A stretch of 64,000 bases of DNA from NCBI GenBank assembly GCA_030949985.1, contig JAUZRX010000010.1, positions 149,148 through 213,147 on the forward strand. Direction: 5' to 3'. The position numbers were made by a program, and so were the translations under genes. Of this stretch, positions 46,109 to 62,738 are shown in pieces. This stretch comes from Acidobacteriota bacterium. GTDB lineage: Bacteria; Acidobacteriota; Polarisedimenticolia; J045. Each line of letters opens with the position of its first letter. The first letter of the stretch is position 1. A model generated the notes under the pieces. It was not told the DNA's origin, ran no database searches, and was given only the letters and a program-made list of their open reading frames with translations.

Positions 46109-46333
46109 GTGAAAGTGGTCATTCATTACTGCGGGGTTTGAAACTACGAGCCCCGGGCCGCGAGTCTCGCGGCCTATCTCAAGCAGCACCTGGGTGTCGA
46201 CGGCGAACTCCAGCGCGGCAGCGGGGGCGTCTTCGACGTGTGGGTGGATGACGTGAGAATCTTCAGCAAGCACGAGGAAGGCGACTTCCCCGAGGAGGCG
46301 GAGATTCTCCGGCGCATCCAGGCCCGCGGCTAG
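46109..46333 (+). CDS. SelW/Rdx-family selenoprotein with in-frame UGA (Sec)
   Basis: 74 residues if UGA at 46139-46141 is read as selenocysteine. GTG 46109 follows a GAGGAGA ribosome site. It begins VKVVIHYCGVU-NYEPRA, the CxxU redox motif (Cys8, Sec11) of SelW/SelT/Rdx proteins, and continues QRGSGGVFDVWVDD, then HEEGDFPE, all in family register to TAG 46331-46333. Rdx proteins have a thioredoxin-like fold and reduce thiols, probably via glutathione or thioredoxin. A hairpin suited to a bacterial SECIS lies right after the UGA, and a tRNA-Sec gene is in the same window. A stop-to-stop ORF caller will miss it. Confidence 0.9.
46142..46174 (+). promoter_or_regulatory. Bacterial SECIS element downstream of UGA
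   Basis: Fourteen bases after the UGA, GGCCGCG (46156-46162) pairs perfectly with CGCGGCC (46168-46174) around the loop AGTCT. The loop resembles the apical AGGUCU with its key G-U of the E. coli fdhF SECIS, recognised by SelB. Spacing and loop both fit a bacterial SECIS. Confidence 0.75.
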
Positions 46334-61811: not shown

Positions 61812-62480
61812 TCATTCCCGGGTGGGCTCGTCGGCGGAATCGACTTCGGAAGCGTCGTCGGGGGCGACGGCCTCCTCCGCGGCATCGGTCCCGGAGGTCT
61901 CTTCCTCTTCGAGTTCGATCTCTTCCCAGGGAGCCTTGATGTCGGTGAGATCAGCCTCGTCGTCGTCGAGCCACTGGCGCCAGTTGCCGCCGGTGCCCCT
62001 CGAGACCTCGCGCTCTTCGAGGAGTTGGTGCCGCGACTGGGCGGCGCGTTCACCCCGCCCCTCGGCCGCCTTGCCCTTGCGCTTCTTGGGCCGGCGACGG
62101 ATCTCCTTGGCCCCCTCCTCACCCGGGGCCAGGGGTACCGCCGAGGCTGGCGGGGGGGCCGCGGGGCGAGGCCGGGAAGGGGGCCGTGGAGGACCGCTGG
62201 GACCACCGGAGGGGCGACGCGGCGGCGCCTCACCTCTCTCGCGAGCCTGGTTGACCACCAGAGGCCGTCCACCGATCCGACGCTCGTTCATGCCTTCCAC
62301 CGCGGCCTGCGCCATTTCCGGCGTTTCCAGGGAAACGAAGGCGAATCCGCGGGGACGGCCGGTTTCCCGGTCGGTGACGACGTGAACATCCGTGACTGTT
62401 CCGTAAGAGGAGAACAGTTCACGCAGTTCCTCGTTGGTCGTGGAAAAAGGGAGGTTGCCGACGTAAAGACGCGTTGCCAT
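61812..62480 (-). CDS. RRM-type RNA-binding protein
   Basis: 222 residues from ATG 62480. The N-terminal ~80 residues are an RNA-recognition motif: RNP2 LYVGNL (5-10) and RNP1 RGFAFVSL (~44-51), with GRPRGFAF and MNERRIGGRPLVVNQARE. The C-terminal ~140 residues are a Pro/Arg/Lys linker (RRRPKKRKGK) and an acidic Glu/Asp tail. Stand-alone bacterial RRMs occur in cyanobacteria, Acidobacteriota and others and bind RNA, often during cold stress. No strong ribosome site is seen. Confidence 0.9.
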   Translation of the reverse strand: MATRLYVGNLPFSTTNEELRELFSSYGTVTDVHVVTDRETGRPRGFAFVSLETPEMAQAAVEGMNERRIGGRPLVVNQARERGEAPPRRPSGGPSGPPRPPSRPRPAAPPPASAVPLAPGEEGAKEIRRRPKKRKGKAAEGRGERAAQSRHQLLEEREVSRGTGGNWRQWLDDDEADLTDIKAPWEEIELEEEETSGTDAAEEAVAPDDASEVDSADEPTRE

Positions 62481-62638: not shown

Positions 62639-62738
62639 GGAAGCGAGAGGGGTCTGGTGACCTCCGCGGCCTTCAAAGCCGTCCGCTCCGGTGGTCGCGC
62701 CATCGGAGGGTGGGTTCGATTCCCACACGCTTCCGCCA
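62639..62738 (+). tRNA. selC: tRNA-Sec (UCA anticodon)
   Basis: 100 nt including encoded CCA. The acceptor stem is GGAAGCG/CGCTTCC with a G discriminator. The anticodon loop CTTCAAA carries TCA (62673-62675) on a 5-bp stem. The variable arm is a 9-bp helix (CTCCGGTGG with CCATCGGAG) as required for selenocysteine tRNA. The T arm is GTGGG-TTCGATT-CCCAC. The longer stem and arm are recognised by SelA and SelB. Resembles E. coli selC overall. No selA, selB or selD occurs in this window. Confidence 0.92.

Follow-up and report, generated by a model that had tools for sequence, protein, structure and literature searches.

An unpaired eighth acceptor position in the selenocysteine tRNA of an Acidobacteriota bacterium and in many other bacterial tRNA-Sec sequences

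We analysed a window of 64,000 nucleotides from an Acidobacteriota bacterium (assembly GCA_030949985.1, contig JAUZRX010000010.1, positions 149,148 to 213,147 of the forward strand) that carries a gene for a selenocysteine tRNA (tRNA-Sec) and a SelW-like gene with an in-frame UGA (Table 1). ARAGORN called a tRNA-SeC at 62639-62738 on the plus strand, with the anticodon TCA at tRNA position 35, and the Rfam covariance model RF01852 matched over its full length at 62639-62734 with 70.9 bits (E 1.7e-12, cut-off 47), the sole match above a gathering score within the window. The cut-off alone is insufficient, as the host has an ordinary tRNA-Ser that also exceeds it, at 50.4 bits, and the anticodon, the D arm and the length of the acceptor therefore count besides the score; this 50.4-bit match is tRNA-Ser(UGA), and the existence of a second tRNA-Sec in the host was thus rejected. 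Folded freely, the sequence formed a 7-bp acceptor, a 6-bp D stem with a 4-nt loop, a 5-bp anticodon stem, a 10-bp variable arm and a 5-bp T stem, followed by G73 and CCA, with a minimum free energy of -52.6 kcal/mol; 2 of 200 shuffled sequences were equally stable. G was found at discriminator position 73 in 204 of the 205 tRNA-Sec sampled (see below), and the window gene is of the same kind (G62735). All 12 genomes of the host family, the host counted, have an RF01852 match at E <= 1e-10, and since the gene is kept throughout the family and its fold is intact, a suppressor tRNA or a pseudogene was rejected. The original prediction had placed at these coordinates a tRNA-Sec, and not an ordinary suppressor tRNA, with a TCA anticodon, a long variable arm, an encoded CCA and an A-A mismatch in the acceptor; ARAGORN, RF01852 and the fold bear it out on each of these. 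Combined, these results identify 62639-62738 as a genuine bacterial tRNA-Sec and an ordinary gene. A gene for an RRM RNA-binding protein (61812-62480, minus strand) is located just upstream of the tRNA-Sec gene and divergent from it, and is a neighbour of the tRNA in the same-genus genome too.

Table 1. Features of the tRNA-Sec gene and of the UGA-containing SelW-like genes (positions are those of the window unless a contig handle is given).
Feature	Position	Strand	Details and evidence
tRNA-Sec gene (selC)	62639..62738	+	UCA anticodon 62673-62675, encoded CCA; ARAGORN, Rfam, fold
Acceptor stem 5' strand, pairs 1-7	62639..62645	+	partner strand 62728-62734; fold
First A of the A-A mismatch, eighth acceptor position (E. 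coli position 7)	62646	+	
Opposing A of the A-A mismatch (E. coli position 66)	62727	+	
D arm, 6-bp stem and 4-nt loop	62649..62664	+	fold
Long variable arm, 10 bp	62686..62708	+	fold
T arm, 5-bp stem	62710..62726	+	fold
Discriminator G73	62735	+	
SelW-like (Rdx) probable selenoprotein gene, GTG start, C-G-V-U, UGA 46139-46141	46109..46333	+	PF10262 72.6 bits; TIGR02174 59.2 bits (cut-off 34.2)
Candidate SECIS hairpin, loop GUC, 16 nt after the start of the UGA	46155..46175	+	fold
Second SelW-like (Rdx) gene, in-frame UGA at the CxxU position L077:11447-11449	L077:11252-11485	minus	selD operon

In the fold, A62646 faces A62727 unpaired at the eighth acceptor position, between the seven acceptor pairs and the T stem, and the acceptor/T branch comprises 13 layers (8-nt acceptor strands and a 5-bp T stem). 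The same A-A is carried by the tRNA-Sec copy of the same-genus genome, and none of the 13 tRNA-Sec sequences of the host family, which include two identical copies from one genome, has a Watson-Crick eighth pair (A-A in 7, C-A in 4 and A-G in 2). A sequencing error or a one-off change was rejected on these grounds. The A-A mismatch is real, and the window gene is not alone in having it; the mismatch had been described as slightly unusual, a description that does not hold, as the lack of this pair is the norm of the clade. One family member (L092, at G004:C128:18000-18800) has two extra acceptor mismatches, at the second and fourth pairs, and is possibly degenerate or affected by a sequence error.

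To place the mismatch among bacteria, we collected RF01852 matches at E <= 1e-10 from four phyla, each named after the title of the genome at the centre of its sample. Of 222 loci, six were unparsed or low-scoring (L277, L280, L281, L309, L388 and L092), ten were duplicates and one had a 7-nt acceptor; in the 205 distinct tRNA-Sec, the eighth pair was non-Watson-Crick in 133. This was the case for 35 of 41 distinct tRNA-Sec in Acidobacteriota (46 of 47 places taken), for 5 of 31 in Pseudomonadota (all 36 places taken), for 61 of 66 in Bacillota, the phylum of a Syntrophomonadaceae genome (70 of more than 160 places taken; 53 of the 61 are G-A), and for 32 of 67 in the phylum of Geobacter sp. 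GAC1, hereafter the Geobacter phylum (70 of about 117 listed places taken; 26 of the 32 are G-G), the two partial samples consisting of the 30 best-scoring places and a spread picked by eye down the rest of the list. Over the same 205 sequences, pairs 1-7 showed one mismatch in total, in a set obtained with a parser that demands well-paired acceptor and T stems outside the eighth position and favours clean stems there. Among ordinary tRNAs found in the loci examined (48, of which 39 were usable), 7:66 was Watson-Crick in 39 of 39. A set of named genomes selected by pattern displayed the same spread, with A-C in Methylobacterium, Skermanella and Henriciella, G-A in Syntrophomonas and U-C in two Verrucomicrobia. 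With 133 of 205 tRNA-Sec lacking it, a paired eighth rung cannot define the bacterial tRNA-Sec family, and the textbook picture of a paired acceptor stem fails for many bacteria. The junction mismatch is apparently an under-described, possibly functional trait of bacterial tRNA-Sec.

Several sequences met during this collection deserve mention in their own right. Three partial copies of tRNA-Sec and one poor match were left out of the pattern-selected set. The poor match, L144:3072-3167, is a tRNA-Sec-like gene with a poor 5' half that scores only 38.5 bits. The partial copies, on a Thermoanaerobaculia contig (L155:2213-2280, 4770-4837 and 6192-6259, minus strand), are 3' parts of tRNA-Sec from the anticodon loop to CCA, each located behind similar non-tRNA sequence; the full tRNA was not found on that contig, and the copies look like attachment sites of elements integrating into selC. 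In the Geobacter-phylum sample, second and lower RF01852 matches (56-62 bits) were present in G672, G688, G643, G708, G619, G702, G715 and G659; these may represent tRNA-Ser or variants resembling tRNA-Sec, of which the selC* tRNA-Cys (a name used in PMC7609411) is an example.

In E. coli, C7-G66, G49-U65 and C50-G64 are reported to admit SelB and to reject EF-Tu (PMC9976931, PMC11231383), and the places of this antideterminant, 7:66, 49:65 and 50:64, are pairs 8, 9 and 10 in the present numbering. Two readings of the mismatch were weighed against this background. Firstly, the eighth pair may be unconstrained: where SelB and SelA measure only the length of the branch, the junction would drift and the mismatch would be functionless. 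In a shuffle test, the Acidobacteriota presented 6 Watson-Crick eighth pairs among 41 against 6.5 expected, which corresponds to random assortment, with no avoidance of such pairs beyond the base content of the lineage, and the Bacillota presented slightly more eighth-rung pairing than expected (5 against 2.2). At least 66 changes of eighth-pair type were counted on a tree of the 205 tRNAs, so that the place turns over freely. Free drift is, however, at variance with G-A being held in 53 of 66 Bacillota, and with an association between Watson-Crick pairing at the eighth place and its absence at pair 9 or 10 in Acidobacteriota (Fisher p 1.6e-4) and in Bacillota (p 8e-4). The tree is weak, as its input was the tRNAs alone; on it, out of 8 independent pairs, about 3.7 had the eighth and ninth pairs going opposite ways and 0.1 had both going the same way, a difference that was not significant (median p 0.25); with 275 rows, the figures were 2.6 opposite against 0.1 same, of 4 independent pairs. 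We give the unconstrained eighth pair slightly less than an even chance.

Secondly, the mismatch may be a functional antideterminant or a SelB determinant, as one of several interchangeable irregularities at pairs 8, 9 and 10. Of the 205 tRNA-Sec, 191 have one or more of these three pairs non-Watson-Crick, and adding the pattern-selected set brings the count to 257 of 275; the three places are those of the E. coli antideterminant, and a non-Watson-Crick pair in the extended acceptor of animal tRNA-Sec, 5a:67b, has been reported as imperative (PMC7609411). Against a function, 16 of the 39 ordinary tRNAs likewise have G-U at 49:65 or 50:64, so that pairs 9 and 10 are weak evidence, and the shuffle test gave no avoidance of Watson-Crick pairing. 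The association between pair 8 and pairs 9 or 10 was absent from the Pseudomonadota and Geobacter-phylum samples (Fisher p 1.0 in both), and in these two samples the eighth pair is kept by covariation (26 paired against 16.2 expected and 35 against 15.4, respectively); moreover, 14 of the 205 tRNA-Sec are Watson-Crick at all three places. Two of the three E. coli antideterminant pairs are themselves Watson-Crick, and irregularity as such may not be the signal. A functional mismatch is thus a serious possibility, held by us at clearly less than even. The wider proposal is doubtful and is offered tentatively: bacterial tRNA-Sec would have no general 8-bp acceptor, most Acidobacteriota and Bacillota having 7 bp and, where the acceptor joins the T stem, a lineage-specific mismatch (A-A, C-A, G-A or G-G), and this irregularity, interchangeable with the 49:65 wobble, would be the general signal that excludes EF-Tu and lets SelB bind, of which the E. 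coli antideterminant would be a local version. For the role of the mismatch, toleration is slightly ahead of function.

The UGA at 46139 lies in a frame (46109-46333) that reads VKVVIHYCGVU... and matches Rdx, as well as the CXXU_selWTH model over its cut-off. The hairpin that follows this UGA has a z-score of -2.32 on 47 nt and of -0.54 on 57 nt, a value that depends on the stretch taken, and the fold is weak as a SECIS. The host genome (3.71 Mb in 133 contigs, given as 100% complete) contains selB, an ORF of 631 aa that encodes SelB winged-helix domains (profile searches gave its first piece 304 bits and the ORF 328.5 bits), and selD (367 bits), with a Se_S_carrier domain at its N-terminus. 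Upstream of selD, its strand also carries genes for a class-V aminotransferase and a TusA-domain protein, together with another Rdx gene in which a UGA lies in frame; this L077 run of UGA-Rdx, TusA-like protein, class-V aminotransferase and Se_S_carrier-SelD fusion is a selenium operon of the host. As the genome has a tRNA-Sec, selB, selD and a second UGA-Rdx gene, the reading of the UGA at 46139 as Sec, already proposed in the original prediction, is well supported though not proven: it is very probably a Sec codon in a CxxU Rdx/SelW gene, and the tRNA-Sec gene in the same window backs it. The genome had also been predicted to decode Sec, with a search for selA, selB and selD as the check; selB and selD were found, and selA had no match in the assembly, which leaves the sequenced pathway incomplete.

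Neither PF03841 nor TIGR00474 matched selA in the host genome. The gene was matched in 54 of the 60 genomes searched and lay over the cut-off in 53, in each case including that of the same genus. Seven further members of the family have selA on a stretch where homologues of the same 199-aa ORF region occur; most of these stretches also contain homologues of a TPR gene or a YchF-like GTPase. The 199-aa ORF that adjoins selA elsewhere in the family was not found in the host (in a single-protein search run without a positive control, whose empty result proves nothing by itself), and the 7.9-kb selA contig of the same-genus genome shared with the host only four short matches of 64-83 bases. Because the neighbourhood of selA is missing as well, a gap in assembly or binning is likelier than a loss of the gene, and the locus was most likely not assembled or binned. 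A loss of selA, with the tRNA and the SelW gene as relics or with another route from Ser to Sec, would fit the empty PF03841 and TIGR00474 searches and the assembly of another family member (G009, 99% complete), also without selA, but is very improbable in view of the missing neighbourhood, of the presence of selA in nearly all genomes searched, that of the same genus among them, and of the intact tRNA, selB, selD and both UGA-Rdx frames. G009 carries two identical tRNA-Sec copies on two contigs.

Combined, these results leave us with high confidence that 62639-62738 is the functional selC of this bacterium in a SelA/SelD/SelB pathway, with an A-A mismatch that is probably tolerated and for which a role in rejecting EF-Tu is possible. 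By analogy with the established pathway, SerRS would charge the window tRNA with serine, SelA would convert the Ser-tRNA into Sec-tRNA with selenophosphate from SelD, and SelB would deliver the Sec-tRNA to in-frame UGA codons such as that at 46139. The 13-layer length of the bacterial acceptor/T branch is kept as 7 bp, a 1x1 mismatch and 5 bp. The mismatch is probably tolerated because the branch requires length and stacking rather than a paired eighth rung; it may also assume the EF-Tu-rejecting role that C7-G66, G49-U65 and C50-G64 hold in E. coli.

The window tRNA shares with E. coli selC and RF01852 the UCA anticodon, G73, the 6-bp D stem with its 4-nt loop, the long variable arm, the 8-nt acceptor strands, the 5-bp T stem and the encoded CCA. 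It differs at the junction, with A-A in place of C7-G66, G-C in place of G49-U65 and U-A in place of C50-G64, and thus does not have the E. coli-type junction, in which the eighth rung is paired and the ninth is a wobble. The Secmarker paper describes bacterial tRNA-Sec of 12 bp (7/5) with bulges or a 7-residue acceptor strand (PMC5330540). These also have only 7 Watson-Crick acceptor pairs and 5 T pairs, but their 3' acceptor strand is 7 residues long and in most cases a base is bulged, whereas the window tRNA has 8 residues on both strands and a symmetric mismatch. The passages of PMC5330540 consulted describe no symmetric mismatch at the eighth pair of an acceptor with 8 residues on each strand, and no earlier statement of such a mismatch was found in the literature searched; older selC papers lay outside this search, and absence from print is not claimed. 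The 5a:67b pair of vertebrate, fly and worm tRNA-Sec is likewise a conserved non-Watson-Crick pair of the extended acceptor, tied to recognition by the elongation factor, but it occupies another position in a 9/4 fold and belongs with another elongation factor and another biosynthesis (PMC7609411). The natural variants of the junction are on offer for re-engineering tRNA-Sec toward EF-Tu, and the mismatch suggests a trait of bacterial tRNA-Sec that is general and open to testing. An 8-bp acceptor has been described as the mark by which SelB and EF-Tu separate tRNA-Sec from other tRNAs (PMC7609411, PMC11231383); contrary to this description, most of the tRNA-Sec sampled here have no true eighth pair.
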